From: Candidatus Wolfebacteria bacterium
Lineage (GTDB): Bacteria; Patescibacteriota; Minisyncoccia; UBA6257; UBA9933
Direction of reading: 5' to 3'
Assembly: GCA_016188075.1 (NCBI GenBank)
Contig: JACPIO010000013.1
Span: 1 to 39,303, forward strand
DNA: 39,303 bases
Below are positions 5,893-34,154 of this stretch, piece after piece. The notes under the pieces were generated by a model that was given only the letters and a program-made list of their open reading frames with translations, ran no database searches and had not been told where the DNA came from. Both the position numbers and the translations under genes were made by a program. Numbering within the stretch: the first letter of the stretch is position 1; each line of letters starts with the position of its first letter.

Positions 5893-8130
5893 ATGGATCA
5901 CAATCATACGCAAATCTTCTATACCTGTCCAATGCATCCGGAAGTCGTGAAAGACGCTCCCGGCAAATGCCCGGGATGCGGAATGGACCTTATAGAAATT
6001 CAAAATTCATTTTTGCGAAGCAAATCCCCGGAGGGTCAATTCAAAAATCAAAATGGCACTGCAAAATCTACAAATCACAGTGAACACGCCGATCATGAAA
6101 TGCGGAAAGCAAGCCATCGCGATCACGAGACCGCAATGACCAATCCGCAGATGGCGAAAAAAATGGAGGCCGATATGCGCCGCCGGTTTTGGATTTCCTT
6201 TCTTCTTTCCATTCCGATTGTTTTGTATTCTCCTTTAGGACTCAACTACTTTAAACTCAATCTTCCGACCCCGATCCCGGCGAGTTGGCTGCTTTTTCTC
6301 TTAACTACCCCAATCGTTTTCTGGACCGGTTCGATTTTCATTACCGGCACCTACTGGTCGCTCAAGGCCCGCAAACTCAATATGTCGGTTTTGATTGCTA
6401 CCGGCGTTCTGGCAGCCTATCTTTTTAGTGTTTTGCTTTCGGTGGCGCGCCCAGGTTCAGACACATTTTACGAGGCGGCGGCGCTCCTTGTTACTTTTGT
6501 TTTATTCGGCCACTGGATGGAAATGAAATCTCGTCGCGGCACCTCCGAGGCCTTGCGCGCGCTTTTTGATTTAGTGCCGCCGCAAGCGAAGGTAATCCGC
6601 TTAGGCAAAGAAATTACAATTCCCAGCGCCGAAATTGTTCATAACGACATTGTGGTTCTGCGGCCCGGCGATAAGGTACCGGTGGATGGAGAAATTATTG
6701 AGGGCGAAACATCCATTGATGAATCCCTGGTAACCGGGGAATCTATGCCGGTTTTAAAAACCATCGGCGATAAAGTCATCGGCGGTTCAGTGAACCAAAC
6801 CGGCGCGGTAAAATTTAGAGCTACAGAGGTTGGATCAGAAACGGTGCTGGCGCAAATCATCAAACTTGTGGAAACGGCGCAAAATTCTAAAGCGCCGGGT
6901 CAGCGGATTGCCGACAAAGCGGCCGGGTGGCTTGTGATTGTCGCCATTGGTTCGGGGACGGCTGCGTTTTTAGGATGGTATTTCGGCGCCGGGGTCGGAC
7001 TTCTTGCCGCGCTCACTTTCGCGGTTTCAACAGTGGTAATCGCCTGCCCGGACGCGCTTGGACTTGCCACTCCTACGGCAGTTGCCGTGGGCACCGGCAT
7101 CGGGGCCAAATACAATATTCTTATTAAAGACGCGGCGACGCTCGAAAACACTTCGCGAATCAACGCGATTATTCTGGATAAGACCGGAACGCTTACAGAA
7201 GGAAAACCAAAGATCACTGACGTCATAGCGTTTAACGGTTTTACTGAAAATGAATTGCTTAAATACGAAGCCAGTCTTGAGGCCGGGTCCAATCATCCGC
7301 TTGCCAAAGCGATTTTGGAAGAAGCCCAAAGACGCAATGCCCTGCCGCTTAAACCGATGGAAAATTTTGAGTCTGTTGCCGGCTATGGGCTTAAAGCGCG
7401 GATTCACGGTAAAATCGTCTTGGCCGGAAAAGAAAAATTGCTCAAGGATAATGCCGTCGCGACTGAAGACGCGAGAGCCATCCTTGATCGGCTTGCCGGA
7501 GAAGGAAAAACATTGAGCTTGCTGGCTATTGATGGAATTTTCGCTGGCGTTATCGCCGCCGCGGATCCGCCTCGAGTAAATTCCAAAAAAACGGTTATGG
7601 CGCTCCAAAAATTAGGCCTGGAAGTGGTGATGATCACAGGCGATCACGCCAAAGTGGCTGAAGGCATCGGGAAAGAATTGGGTCTTGACCGAGTGTTTGC
7701 CGAAGTTCTCCCGGAAGATAAAGCGAGGTATGTCAAAAAATTGCAAGATGAAGGCAAATTTGTCGCTATGGTTGGAGACGGCATTAACGACGCGCCGGCA
7801 TTGGCCCAGTCGGATATCGGCATTGCCATTGGCGCGGGCACAGACGTCGCGATTGAGACCGGCAATATCGTTCTCATGAAATCCGACCCCTACGATATCG
7901 TCGCGGCCATTCGTTTAAGCAAGGCGACGGTTGTCAAGATGAAGCAAAATCTCTTTTGGGCGGCTATCTACAATGTTCTTTCTATTCCTGTCGCAGCCGG
8001 GGTGTTTTATAATACGCTTGGCTGGTCTCTCCGGCCAGAGATTTCCGCGCTCCTAATGTCAGCTTCTTCTATTATCGTAGCCACGAACGCGGTGCTTCTA
8101 AAACGAGTTGAGCCTTATTTAAAAAAATGA
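5893..8130 (+). CDS. Heavy-metal translocating P1B-type ATPase with N-terminal YTCPMHPEV domain and CPD motif
   Basis: YTCPMHPEVVKDAPGKCPGCGMDL, TGES, CPDALGLATPTA, DKTGTLTEGKP, GDGINDAPALAQSDIGIAIG. Confidence 0.95.
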   Translation: MDHNHTQIFYTCPMHPEVVKDAPGKCPGCGMDLIEIQNSFLRSKSPEGQFKNQNGTAKSTNHSEHADHEMRKASHRDHETAMTNPQMAKKMEADMRRRFWISFLLSIPIVLYSPLGLNYFKLNLPTPIPASWLLFLLTTPIVFWTGSIFITGTYWSLKARKLNMSVLIATGVLAAYLFSVLLSVARPGSDTFYEAAALLVTFVLFGHWMEMKSRRGTSEALRALFDLVPPQAKVIRLGKEITIPSAEIVHNDIVVLRPGDKVPVDGEIIEGETSIDESLVTGESMPVLKTIGDKVIGGSVNQTGAVKFRATEVGSETVLAQIIKLVETAQNSKAPGQRIADKAAGWLVIVAIGSGTAAFLGWYFGAGVGLLAALTFAVSTVVIACPDALGLATPTAVAVGTGIGAKYNILIKDAATLENTSRINAIILDKTGTLTEGKPKITDVIAFNGFTENELLKYEASLEAGSNHPLAKAILEEAQRRNALPLKPMENFESVAGYGLKARIHGKIVLAGKEKLLKDNAVATEDARAILDRLAGEGKTLSLLAIDGIFAGVIAAADPPRVNSKKTVMALQKLGLEVVMITGDHAKVAEGIGKELGLDRVFAEVLPEDKARYVKKLQDEGKFVAMVGDGINDAPALAQSDIGIAIGAGTDVAIETGNIVLMKSDPYDIVAAIRLSKATVVKMKQNLFWAAIYNVLSIPVAAGVFYNTLGWSLRPEISALLMSASSIIVATNAVLLKRVEPYLKK
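6010..6043 (+). repeat. 34-nt repeat inside the P1B-ATPase gene (FLRSKSPEGQF)
   Basis: TTTTTGCGAAGCAAATCCCCGGAGGGTCAATTCA, identical to 26120-26153. Confidence 0.95.
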
Positions 8131-8621: not shown

Positions 8622-9272
8622 ATGAAAAAAATAACTGCTTCGATTTATTTTATTATTTTTCTTCTGACAATCCTTTCTTCTTTTTCTTACGCCGAGATGA
8701 TGAATAGCGCCGATCCAACAGTTTCCGAGAATCACACTGCTCGGGAAGAGATGGAAGGCAAAGAAATCTGGGAAAGATTCCAAGCCAAACAAATCGCGTG
8801 CGGAGACCTAAAAGACGATAATTTTGGAGCGCTCGGCGAATACTTTATGGGATTGATGCTGGGGCAATCCCACGAAGCAATGAACAATATGATGATTCAG
8901 ATGATGGGCGATGAAGGCGAGGAACAAATGCATGTTGTGATGGGCAAAAGACTTTCCGGATGCGATGTCGCGGCTCAATTTTCCGGACCTGCCATAGGTT
9001 TTATGCCGATGATGATGGGAGGTTGGTCGTCTCCCTTTGGTTATAATGATAAAAATATGATGGGCTATGGTTACGGCGCTGGAACATGGTTCGGCGGCGC
9101 GGGAATGATCTTTTGGTGGATCCTTATCGTTGTCGCTATCGTTTTAGTAATCAAGTGGGCAGTTATAAAACCCGGAAAGGGAAATTCCGCCATGGAAACC
9201 TTGAAGGAGCGCTACGCTAAAGGAGAAATATCAAAAGAAGAATTCGAGGAGAAACGCCGAGCAATCTCTTAA
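8622..9272 (+). CDS. Met-rich membrane protein with C-terminal SHOCT-like motif
   Basis: LKERYAKGEISKEEFEEKRRAI; signal peptide; MMG/GYGYG-rich segment. Confidence 0.7.
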   Translation: MKKITASIYFIIFLLTILSSFSYAEMMNSADPTVSENHTAREEMEGKEIWERFQAKQIACGDLKDDNFGALGEYFMGLMLGQSHEAMNNMMIQMMGDEGEEQMHVVMGKRLSGCDVAAQFSGPAIGFMPMMMGGWSSPFGYNDKNMMGYGYGAGTWFGGAGMIFWWILIVVAIVLVIKWAVIKPGKGNSAMETLKERYAKGEISKEEFEEKRRAIS

Positions 9273-9871
9273 TTTCCCTTTTCTATCCGCTCGGCGTATT
9301 CGCCGGTTTGCGTATTCACTTTTATTACATCCCCTTCGTTTATAAAAAGCGGAGCTTGGATTTTGGCGCCGGTTTCAATGACCACGGTTTTCGTGCCGCC
9401 TGCCGCAGTCGAGCCGCGGATGGCCGGCGGCGCTTCGACAACTTTGTAATCAACTTTGATTGGTAATTCGATGCCTATGATTTGGCTGTCTCCGCCAGAG
9501 GCGGATCCGCCTTCGGCGGAGAACTTAATCGCCAGAACATCTAAATTTGATTTTAGAAATTGAGCCGAGTCGCCAAGCGTTTCCGCTTGCAGGGCAAAAC
9601 GATTTTTTGGATTGCCAATCTCATCAAACCACCACTCGCCGCGATTCTCGTATAAAAATCTGGATTTCATTTTTTCGATTTCCGCTTCTTCAAATTCGTC
9701 CGCCGGCTTAAAATTCCGCTCCAAAGCCTGACCGGTTTTCAGGTTTTTTATTTTAGTCTGCACGCTCGAACCGCCGCGTCCCATGTGCAAATGCTTGACT
9801 GACAAAACAACGTAGGGATCGCCCTGAACTTTTATGATTATTCCGTTTTTGAGGTCGTTTATAGAAAGCAT
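9269..9871 (-). CDS. efp: Elongation factor P
   Basis: MLSINDLKNGIIIKVQGDPYVVLSVKHLHMGRGGSSVQTKIKNL...; start taken at MLSIND because the longer ORF runs into an upstream repeat. Confidence 0.93.
   Translation of the reverse strand: MLSINDLKNGIIIKVQGDPYVVLSVKHLHMGRGGSSVQTKIKNLKTGQALERNFKPADEFEEAEIEKMKSRFLYENRGEWWFDEIGNPKNRFALQAETLGDSAQFLKSNLDVLAIKFSAEGGSASGGDSQIIGIELPIKVDYKVVEAPPAIRGSTAAGGTKTVVIETGAKIQAPLFINEGDVIKVNTQTGEYAERIEKGN
9491..9520 (-). repeat. In-frame palindromic insert in efp (SAEGGSASGG)
   Basis: TCCGCCAGAGGCGGATCCGCCTTCGGCGGA, near-perfect palindrome, 27/30 identical to 25721-25750. Confidence 0.85.
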
Positions 9872-9884
9872 AGCAACTTTACGA

Positions 9885-9972
9885 GCATCGATGCCAATAT
9901 ACAAATAATGCGAATTATACGAATGAAACTTTATTCGTATCATTAGTAAATTCGTATATTCGCATCGATACC
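9885..9972 (-). repeat. Intergenic quasi-palindromic repeat, copy A (upstream of efp)
   Basis: GCATCGATGCCAATATAC...ATTCGTATCATTAGTAAATTCGTATATTCGCATCGATACC; related to 19856-19932 and 21900-21976. Confidence 0.9.
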
Positions 9973-19855: not shown

Positions 19856-19932
19856 GTATCGATACCAATATACAAATGTACGAATTATACGAATTCGTAT
19901 CATTAGTATAATTCGCATATTCGCATCGATAC
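19856..19932 (-). repeat. Intergenic quasi-palindromic repeat, copy B (between S1 gene and ftsH)
   Basis: GTATCGATACCAATATACAAATGTACGAATTATACGAATTCGTATCATTAGTATAATTCGCATATTCGCATCGATAC. Confidence 0.93.
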
Positions 19933-21899: not shown

Positions 21900-21976
21900 G
21901 TAGCGATTCGAATATACGAATGTACGAATTATACGAATTCGTATCATTAGTATAATTCGTATATTGGCATCGATAC
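21900..21976 (+). repeat. Intergenic quasi-palindromic repeat, copy C (upstream of pnp)
   Basis: TAGCGATTCGAATATACGAATGTACGAATTATACGAATTCGTATCATTAGTATAATTCGTATATTGGCATCGATAC. Confidence 0.93.
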
Positions 21977-24530: not shown

Positions 24531-25106
24531 CTTTATTCCATTTCCGGAAAACTGCTCGCTAAAAAATCCGATTTTGCCGTTATGGAAACCAACGGTTTGG
24601 GACTCGCAATTTTCGCTTCGGGGCAAACGCTCCGCAAATTGCCCAAAATCGGCGGCCGGGCGAAGTTATTTATTTATCTCTACAATCATCAGAACGGCGC
24701 GGAAATTTACGGCTTTTTTTCGGAAAAAGAGCGCGAATTTTTTGAATCCCTAATTTCTATAAATGGAATTGGGGCTCGGGCCGCTTTAAAAATTTTAGGC
24801 GTTGCCAGATTCGAAAATCTCATCTCCGCCATCAAAACCGGCCGGAGCGATTTTTTGGTTAGGGCCGCGGGCATCGGCAGGAAGAAAGCCGAACGCATCA
24901 TATTAGAACTTAAAGACAAAAAAGGGGGGGCGTTGCTGGCAAAGGGCGATAATTCTTTAGAGCTAAATTACGAAGTAAGCGAAGCTCTCAAAGCCCTGGG
25001 ATACAGGCGAAACGAAACCGAGGAAGCGATTCAAAAAATATCGCCCAAGGCTAAAACTCTCGAAGAAAAAATAAAATCCGCCTTAAAAATTTTGAGCCGC
25101 CAATGA
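24528..25106 (+). CDS. ruvA: Holliday junction branch migration protein RuvA
   Basis: LYSISGKLL...LFIYLYNHQNGAEIYGFFSEKEREFFESLISINGIGARAALKIL...GIGRKKAERIILELKDK. Confidence 0.93.
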   Translation: MLYSISGKLLAKKSDFAVMETNGLGLAIFASGQTLRKLPKIGGRAKLFIYLYNHQNGAEIYGFFSEKEREFFESLISINGIGARAALKILGVARFENLISAIKTGRSDFLVRAAGIGRKKAERIILELKDKKGGALLAKGDNSLELNYEVSEALKALGYRRNETEEAIQKISPKAKTLEEKIKSALKILSRQ

Positions 25107-26557
25107 ACCGGGTCCTCCAATCTCTAAAAAAAATAATTCCTTCGGCACTTTTTGATTTTTTCGCCCCTTTTTATCATTTGTTACTTAGTTTTTGCGGGGC
25201 GTTTTTTTATGGATTCCCGTCGCTGGAACTGACGGTTATCGGCGTAACCGGCACCAAGGGCAAAACCACGACTTGTAATTTAATCGCTCAAATTCTCGAA
25301 TCCGCCGGACTAAAAACCGGCCTCATGACCACGGTCAATTTTAAGATCGGAGAGCGCGAGTGGATTAATGATACCAAACAAACAATGCTTGGCCGATTCG
25401 AACTGCAAAAATTATTACGGGAGATGGCTCGGGCCGGTTGTCGCTACGCAGTGATTGAAACCTCATCCGAAGGAATTCTGCAATATCGCCATCGCTTTAT
25501 TGATTACAGCGTTGCGGTTTTTACCAACCTAACACCGGAGCATATCGAACGGCACGGCAGTTTTGAAAATTACCGCCGAGCCAAAATAAAACCTTTCGAA
25601 AAAGCGGCTAAAAAAGAGAATGGCGTTGGGGTTTATAATCTTGACGATCCCAATATCAATTATTTTTTGAAACCGTCAATAAAAAACAAATATGGATACG
25701 GCGCGAAAATTTCTAATTTTTCCGCCAAAGGCGGATCCACCTCGGGCGGACAATTTCTCCCGATTCGCAAAGCGAATCGAGGATCCTCGATTCTGCAAAG
25801 CAGAATCGGGATAATTTCTAATAAATTTCAAATATCTAATATCGAATTGTCTCCGGAGAAAACGATATTTAATTTTGATGGTGAGAATTTTGAAATGCCG
25901 CTTATTGGCGAATTTAATGTTTATAACGCCGCGGCGGCAATCTGCGTTGCTCTGTCACAAAACATTCCGATGGAGCAAATTAAAAAAGCGCTTGCTTCGG
26001 CCAAGCCGCCGCCGGGCCGAATGGAAATTATTGACAAGGGCCAGGATTTTACCGTCATTGTTGACTACGCTCACGAACCAGCCAGTCTGGAGGCAGCGTA
26101 TAAAGCTATTCATAATTCTTTTTTGCGAAGCAAATCCCCGGAGGGTCAATTCATAATTCGTAATTCAAAACTAATTTGTTTACTGGGAGCGCAGGGTGGC
26201 GGCCGAGACAAATGGAAGCGGGCGGAGATGGGCAAGATCGCAGCCCAATACTGCGACGAGATTATTTTGACGAATGAAGACCCATATGACGAAAACCCCT
26301 CTACTATTTTAAATGACATCGAGGCGGGGTTTTCGTCAATTTCTAATTTCCAATTTCTAATTTCTAACCTCTATGAAGTTATAGACCGCGAGGAGGCTAT
26401 TCAAAAAGCTATTTTTCTAGCTCAAAAAGGCGATGTAGTGATTTTAACCGGTAAGGGCGGCGAGGTTTGGATGTGCGTGGAAGGCGGAAAGAAAATTCCC
26501 TGGGACGAGAAGAAAATCGTAGAAGAAATATTATCAGCGAAGCGATATGAAATATAA
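25103..26557 (+). CDS. murE: Mur ligase family protein, UDP-N-acetylmuramyl-tripeptide synthetase-like
   Basis: GVTGTKGKTTTCNLIAQIL, ETSSEGILQYRH, FTNLTPEHIERHGSFENYR, NAAAAICVAL, VDYAHEPASLE. Confidence 0.8.
   Translation: MNRVLQSLKKIIPSALFDFFAPFYHLLLSFCGAFFYGFPSLELTVIGVTGTKGKTTTCNLIAQILESAGLKTGLMTTVNFKIGEREWINDTKQTMLGRFELQKLLREMARAGCRYAVIETSSEGILQYRHRFIDYSVAVFTNLTPEHIERHGSFENYRRAKIKPFEKAAKKENGVGVYNLDDPNINYFLKPSIKNKYGYGAKISNFSAKGGSTSGGQFLPIRKANRGSSILQSRIGIISNKFQISNIELSPEKTIFNFDGENFEMPLIGEFNVYNAAAAICVALSQNIPMEQIKKALASAKPPPGRMEIIDKGQDFTVIVDYAHEPASLEAAYKAIHNSFLRSKSPEGQFIIRNSKLICLLGAQGGGRDKWKRAEMGKIAAQYCDEIILTNEDPYDENPSTILNDIEAGFSSISNFQFLISNLYEVIDREEAIQKAIFLAQKGDVVILTGKGGEVWMCVEGGKKIPWDEKKIVEEILSAKRYEI
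25721..25750 (+). repeat. In-frame palindromic insert in murE-like gene (SAKGGSTSGG)
   Basis: TCCGCCAAAGGCGGATCCACCTCGGGCGGA, related to 9491-9520. Confidence 0.85.
25759..25810 (+). repeat. Compound palindrome inside murE-like gene (PIRKANRGSSILQSRIG)
   Basis: CCCGATTCGCAAAGCGAATCGAGGATCCTCGATTCTGCAAAGCAGAATCGGG. Confidence 0.9.
26120..26153 (+). repeat. 34-nt repeat inside the murE-like gene (FLRSKSPEGQF)
   Basis: Identical to 6010-6043 and read in the same frame. Confidence 0.95.
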
Positions 26558-28986: not shown

Positions 28987-29017
28987 TAAGGTAGCAATTC
29001 GAATATACAAAACATTT

Positions 29018-31142: not shown

Positions 31143-31224
31143 CACGAGCGAGTCCCGATCGCAATCAGGACGACGAGGGGCCACAAATACAAATCACGAA
31201 TAAAAATTTCGGTATAACCCCCAC

Positions 31225-31275
31225 CTAAAATGTTTCCCTTATAAAAGATTAATCTTATATAAGGTACAAATTTTT
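31225..31275. repeat. Palindrome-centred dispersed repeat, copy 2
   Basis: CTAAAATGTTTCCCTTATAAAAGATTAATCTTATATAAGGTACAAATTTTT. Confidence 0.9.
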
Positions 31276-33696: not shown

Positions 33697-34107
33697 ATGA
33701 ATAGCAAATCCGAACTTGGCCAATTAGGCGAGGATCTTGCCTGTAAATATCTCGTGGAAAACGGCTATAAAATTATTGAACGGAATTTTTGGAAGCCGTG
33801 GGGCGAATTAGATATTGTCGCAAAATATAAAGACGGCACCTTAGTGTTTGTCGAGGTGAAAACTATGCAAGGTCGCAACTATAACCATGACGATGACCGC
33901 GACGAGATAAAACCGGAAGATCAATTAACGAAAGCCAAGCTTCGCAAACTTAAAAGAACCGCGTCGCTTTACGCCGGCCATCGTCCGGAATTAATTAATG
34001 ATAAAAAAGGATGGAGAATTGATTTAATCGCAATCAACGTAGATAGTTCTCGTGACTTGACAGATTATAAAAAAGATTGTGATATAAGATATTACGAAAA
34101 CATCTAA
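33697..34107 (+). CDS. YraN/UPF0102 family nuclease-like protein
   Basis: GQLGEDLACKYLVENGYKIIERNFWKPWGELDIVAKYKDGTLVFVEVKT. Confidence 0.92.
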   Translation: MNSKSELGQLGEDLACKYLVENGYKIIERNFWKPWGELDIVAKYKDGTLVFVEVKTMQGRNYNHDDDRDEIKPEDQLTKAKLRKLKRTASLYAGHRPELINDKKGWRIDLIAINVDSSRDLTDYKKDCDIRYYENI

Positions 34108-34154
34108 AATGTTTCCCTTATAAAAGATTAATCTTATATAATGTACAAATTTTT
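34104..34154. repeat. Palindrome-centred dispersed repeat, copy 3
   Basis: CTAAAATGTTTCCCTTATAAAAGATTAATCTTATATAATGTACAAATTTTT. Confidence 0.9.

Follow-up and report, generated by a model that had tools for sequence, protein, structure and literature searches.

How did a 30-nt palindrome come to lie, in frame, inside the gene for elongation factor P (EF-P)? The window analysed here, a 39,303-nt stretch of DNA from a Candidatus Wolfebacteria bacterium, carries such a segment at positions 9491–9520, where the minus strand codes for the ten residues SAEGGSASGG. It is likely, with a probability of roughly 0.8, that the segment belongs to a family of dispersed, non-autonomous palindromic repeats that code for protein: insertion, dispersal, a bias in reading frame, stem compensation and clean 30-nt empty sites are all shown.

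A 30-nt double hairpin in efp

The efp gene occupies 9269–9871 on the minus strand (start codon set by orthologue alignment; the mechanical open reading frame starts at 9943), and its product matches EFP_N and Elong-fact-P_C (Pfam). On the plus strand the element reads TCCGCCAGAGGCGGATCCGCCTTCGGCGGA, a perfect double hairpin built from two 15-nt units of the form TCCGCC-NNN-GGCGGA: (i) TCCGCC-AGA-GGCGGA at 9491–9505 and (ii) TCCGCC-TTC-GGCGGA at 9506–9520. The coding strand, read in phase 0, is TCC GCC GAA GGC GGA TCC GCC TCT GGC GGA. A preliminary description, made from the sequence alone, had reported a 30-nt palindrome with these coordinates and letters, which held exactly. Its view of the element as one palindrome held only in part, as the pairing kept in evolution is a 15-nt hairpin, present twice, and not a single 30-nt foldback. 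Folded alone as single-stranded DNA, the element is predicted to form two hairpins with 6-bp stems and 3-nt loops (−12.5 kcal/mol, z −4.1), whereas a long foldback has the lowest predicted energy when 60 nt of context are folded. Either fold is possible in the cell, the prediction depending on context length.

The evolutionary record speaks for the smaller unit. The consensus of the copies described below is TCCGCC-RRA-GGCGGA-TCCGCC-TYY-GGCGGA, two tandem 15-nt hairpins, each with a 6-bp stem and a 3-nt loop. Double stem changes re-pair within the same 15-nt hairpin in 28 of 34 cases, against ∼1.4% expected, and compensatory changes occur at all six stem positions with nine different pair changes. 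The variant list for this test was hand-typed from copies in the insert's own genome and its order; these copies share ancestry, so the counts are not independent events and the p-value overstates independence. More compensated stems are found in other phyla (TGCGCC/GGCGCA, TCAGCC/GGCTGA, TTCGCC/GGCGAA). Compensatory stem change thus takes place inside the individual 15-nt units, and a single 30-nt foldback was rejected as the conserved structure. Coding and noncoding copies agree in their loops, one unit having mostly RRA and its partner mostly TYY; the first scan pattern fixed RRR/YYY loops, and the third-position A was not imposed. Noncoding copies also share the flank consensus of coding copies.

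An efp gene was detectable in 54 of 61 genomes (the insert's own and its relatives). The ten residues are absent from all 29 aligned EF-P orthologues of the order, and solved EF-P structures in the PDB have a gap at the same position. Three orthologues have short, different fillings of ∼4–5 residues there; two of these could be decayed single units, which is not proven. The reading of the palindrome as an insertion inside EF-P was therefore upheld, being supported by the orthologue gap. The result that would have refuted it, orthologues broadly coding for the same residues without a palindrome, was looked for and not met (0/29 aligned). In the structure model that the preliminary description had proposed (AlphaFold2, 25 sequences, mean pLDDT 84.9), the insert, residues 119–128, is a low-confidence turn joining the strands 111–118 and 129–135, with pLDDT <50 at residues 122–126, and is accordingly predicted to be a disordered beta-turn. 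Against PDB homologues, copies in GlnA, AtpD, TsaD and Tgt from other genomes likewise stand opposite a ten-residue gap; the joints in AtpD and Tgt differ slightly in length. The EF-P insert is probably just tolerated, without a regulatory role; its near-neutrality is inferred.

Copies, reading frame and empty sites

A second copy lies at 25721–25750 on the plus strand, where it codes for SAKGGSTSGG in a murE-like gene (25103–26557, plus strand; Mur_ligase_M, Mur_ligase_C). It is 27/30 identical to the efp copy: compared on their coding strands, the two differ at 3 of 30 positions, have identical codon phase, and the second unit of the murE-like copy has one broken pair. The match of 27/30 on the opposite strand in the same coding frame, as first reported, held, and the link between the two inserts is now widened to a repeat family across phyla.

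Exact matches to the 15-nt unit number 20 in the genome of origin (676 kb), and a reversed-pattern control gives none, which places the element far beyond chance. Nine double elements are present with ≤2 mismatches, seven of them in phase 0 within genes. The seven hosts are efp, murE and a cobalamin adenosyltransferase (the last by Pfam), together with genes which by eye we take to be a TlpA-type thioredoxin, a glycosyltransferase, an RluD-type pseudouridine synthase and a CCA-adding enzyme. The double element is present in 67 of the 244 genomes of the order, and three congeners have 22 (G112), 1 (G113) and 0 (G114) copies.

When 84,980 species genomes were scanned, at least 119 stretches with the element came to light; going by record titles, ∼69 are from Patescibacteria and 35 from groups outside it: Omnitrophota, Firestonebacteria, Elusimicrobia, Ignavibacteria, Chloroflexota, Kiritimatiellae/Lentisphaerae, Auribacterota, Zixibacteriota, Margulisbacteria, Deltaproteobacteria, Bacteroidetes and Brocadiia. 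Metagenome-assembled genomes (MAGs) of about a dozen phylum-level groups outside Patescibacteria are thus carriers, and the closely similar copies number in the hundreds. Copy number is mostly low, 1–22 per carrier genome in the order and up to 83 elsewhere, the whole-genome maxima being 71 copies in a Kiritimatiellae MAG and 83 in a Chloroflexota MAG. Mis-binning may account for single contigs, but is unlikely to explain 71–83 copies per MAG. An assembly artefact was rejected on three grounds: the copies come from independent projects, they show an in-frame bias, and one lies in a 1.55-Mb single-contig chromosome record. One viral contig carries the element; among plasmid records none reaches 80% coverage of the element, and it was not matched in E. 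coli. In open-access full text, no paper contains the peptide strings and just six, all on unrelated subjects, contain the DNA strings, and topic searches found no description of the element; subscription papers were outside the scope, and the claim of novelty is limited accordingly.

Most copies are read as protein. By codon-usage score, 89 of 122 lie in coding frames, and 75 of these 89 are in phase 0 (p about 5e-23 against one third expected), which reads SA(E/K/R/G)GGSA(S/F)GG; some of the coding copies in other phases are close to ORF ends. Phase 0 is again commonest in the Chloroflexota MAG (14/25), where long ORFs are likely to arise by chance owing to the high GC; two copies lie in one gene of this MAG which, by look, we take to be mutS. 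Inversion leaves the phase-0 frame unchanged, since the palindrome spans 30 nt and is in register with the codons. It follows from the sequence that the element is a multiple of three, stop-free in phase 0 and codon-symmetric under inversion, and so adds a Ser/Ala/Gly linker in either orientation. It is inferred that phase-0 insertions would be near-neutral, becoming a flexible loop at a turn, and that the other two phases (PPxADPPxA or LRxRRIRxWR) would mostly be removed by selection, save at gene ends and in spacers.

Sister-species comparisons show insertion into pre-existing genes, as a clean 30 nt without target duplication, at TTY|RAA-like sites. The empty sites in congeners are CTT|GAA (prfB), TTT|GAA (infB), ACG|GAA (serS site 2) and ATG|AAG (in a family of paralogues), and each of these four lacks exactly 30 nt; another serS site lost 6 nt as well, and an fmt site is untidy. 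The names prfB, infB, serS and fmt were given by eye and are what we take these genes to be. The TTY|RAA-like preference is seen on both sides over 165 copies. On between-species comparison only, the element thus shows what is required of a mobile element, an uneven distribution with undisturbed empty sites in closely related species. Simple target-site duplication is not seen at the clean empty sites, but a small unexplained class remains: exact 7-nt direct repeats flank 7 of the 165 copies, other lengths being near zero, and at least four of the seven are in period-7 arrays. These flanks are not explained by clean insertion, and either target duplication or insertion into heptamer arrays could account for them, with no ground for assigning one over the other.

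Some copies are associated with larger repeats. Five intergenic copies in G112 share longer flanks (TAAGGTTGATTC ... AATAACGCGAAT), so that there the element travels inside a larger repeat, and some copies in the Chloroflexota MAG lie inside a TCGACA|GGCTCA repeat. The genus of G112, G113 and G114 has a large paralogous gene family with tens of matches per genome (CQNCK...FCWLCRAQRRMAFRNER), one G112 member of which carries the element and has matches in G113 and G114.

Other palindromes occur in the window and in similar genomes. The murE-like gene has at least three palindromic inserts within 25721–26152: SAKGGSTSGG, a GATTCGCAAAGCGAATC hairpin (LPIRKANRGSS) just downstream, and FLRSKSPEGQF. 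The last is a second coding repeat, TTTGCGAAGCAAATCCCCGGAGGGTCAATTC, found in frame in a P-type ATPase gene (6012–6042) and in murE (26122–26152); 413 kb of the same genome hold five copies (≤3 mismatches), and one more lies in a 699-aa ORF. The palindrome ATTTATCGAGGTTCAACCTCGATAAAT, at 993–1020 and 798–825, reads IYRGSTSIN in a signal-peptidase-like ORF. Palindromes of its GAGGTT.AACCTC type occur beside and within a RAYT gene of contig C18, and one is in frame in a 647-aa ORF, so that it resembles a RAYT-linked REP which can enter genes as well. Two repeats are intergenic: a 77-nt imperfect palindrome (19856–19932 and 21900–21976, 92% alike; part at 9887–9971; relatives at 28991 and 35138) and the AT-rich palindrome CCTTATAAAAGATTAATCTTATATAAGG (1524–1577, 31222–31275 and 34101–34154). 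Further short in-frame palindromic peptides, LPTGQAG, STGSGQA and RQGFGGQ, occur in similar genomes.

What the element is and what might move it

The rival that survives best concerns mechanism only and is compatible with the dispersed-repeat reading. It is possible, though rather unlikely, that no dedicated transposase is involved and that host processes act on single-stranded DNA hairpins, by template switching or by recombination of short DNA from natural transformation. The clean 30-nt insertions without duplication, the continued complementarity of the stems, the many copies in genomes without Y1_Tnp and the cross-phylum range all favour this. However, template switching alone does not bring one sequence to many unrelated genes, and the TTY|RAA target preference suggests an enzyme.

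It is unlikely that the element is a REP-type repeat moved in trans by a RAYT (a Y1 tyrosine transposase, IS200/IS605-like), a mechanism proposed for GTAG REPs. Elsewhere, hairpin repeats do occur together with RAYTs (PMC3733652), the genome of origin has four Y1_Tnp genes, and carriage of the element goes with that of Y1_Tnp in the 244 genomes (OR 3.0, p 4e-4, without phylogenetic correction), with Y1_Tnp present in 14 of 15 non-Patescibacterial carriers. Against this, the element adjoins a Y1_Tnp gene in none of 36 loci, many of which have their own, different palindromes (in the genome of origin, CGAGG-type palindromes flank three of the four Y1 genes). Y1_Tnp is also missing from 11 of the 21 genomes with ≥5 copies, including G112 (22 copies, 97% completeness). 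The element has no GTAG or CGTC tag: at the 330 ends of 165 copies, in both readings, GTAG was found 0 times, CTAC 0, CGTC 1 and GACG 0. A statistical association exists, but in the 36 loci tested the RAYTs are not the cognate partners of the element.

A functional nucleic-acid signal kept in place by selection (an mRNA hairpin, a processing or pausing site, a DNA-binding or uptake sequence) would account for the maintained stem pairing. It is very unlikely all the same: the element sits in unrelated genes and is absent from sister species, its ∼one copy or fewer per 30 kb is too rare for an uptake signal, its symmetry means that it carries no strand information, and an Rfam search with it gave no match. 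Selection for SAEGGSASGG as a linker, the palindrome being a by-product of codon choice, is all but excluded: a Ser/Ala/Gly loop makes a good flexible linker and the phase-0 bias is strong, but the DNA itself is conserved and not just the peptide (the stems show compensatory changes, and copies outside coding frames share the loops and flanks), and orthologues do without it.

Under the preferred reading, a dispersed protein-coding palindromic repeat, it is inferred that the element spreads as selfish DNA, within genomes and horizontally between phyla, and that its hairpins may be recognised or copied as single strands. The putative mobiliser would not be one of the RAYT/Y1 transposases tested; no mobiliser was found and no transposition was seen. 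A bolder reading can be neither favoured nor set aside on present evidence: that this 30-bp double hairpin is among the smallest known self-spreading protein-coding elements, moved through about a dozen phyla by an undescribed, RAYT-independent and hairpin-dependent mechanism, and that its codon-symmetric, stop-free, multiple-of-three make-up lets it live in essential genes in either orientation. The sharp question raised is what moves a 30-bp hairpin between phyla. The copies are also natural experiments on where proteins tolerate a ten-residue insertion, and annotators meeting such peptides in metagenome proteins should recognise them as DNA-level inserts.

Comparison with known palindromic repeats

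On the criteria tested, with the CGTC tag of RPE-4/6 as the only sequence feature compared with RPE or Wolbachia (WPE) families, the element behaves as an RPE does, or as a REP dimer inside a gene would, yet it fully satisfies neither definition. RPEs are palindromes of 100–150 bp that also occur inside ORFs without breaking the frame (PMC3767692, PMC2229807). Like the element, RPEs and the Wolbachia protein-coding palindromic repeats lie in frame in conserved protein genes and also between genes, and are tolerated (PMC3767692, PMC2229807). In contrast, RPEs are long stem-loops of 84–192 bp (typically 100–150) from Rickettsia and Wolbachia, whereas the element has 30 bp, two 6-bp hairpins and ten residues and ranges over about a dozen phyla. 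A CGTC tag is present in RPE-4/6 (PMC3733652) and absent from the element.

The REP/BIME/REPIN repeats, with their GTAG and CGTC super-families, are likewise short, non-autonomous palindromes, often in adjacent units and in some cases intragenic (PMC3733652, PMC3116915). Among GTAG and CGTC REPs some are intragenic, and CGTC REPs are reported to have no dedicated transposase (PMC3733652). The element meets the copy criterion for a REP, a 20–40 bp palindrome with many copies per genome, but REPs are mostly intergenic whereas it is mostly in coding frames (89/122), and it does not lie beside RAYT genes, a trait of the GTAG class. MITEs (Correia/NEMIS, ERIC, RUP) resemble it as small non-autonomous repeats, some of which carry ORFs fused in frame (PMC2229807). 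They are ∼100–200 bp long, end in inverted repeats and usually duplicate their target, whereas the element has 30 bp and shows no duplication at its clean empty sites. Double-hairpin elements and repetitive hairpin-forming elements of mitochondrial DNA consist, like the element, of adjacent small hairpins, dispersed and patchy among relatives (PMC2800124, PMC5910586). They are organellar, and the comparison covers architecture and distribution alone.

The invasion of protein genes by palindromic DNA has so far been known mainly from Rickettsia and Wolbachia, along with some intragenic REPs. A 30-bp version in efp, infB, prfB, serS, pheT, dnaJ, atpD, glnA and mutS, across about a dozen phyla, would be a general route to protein loops.
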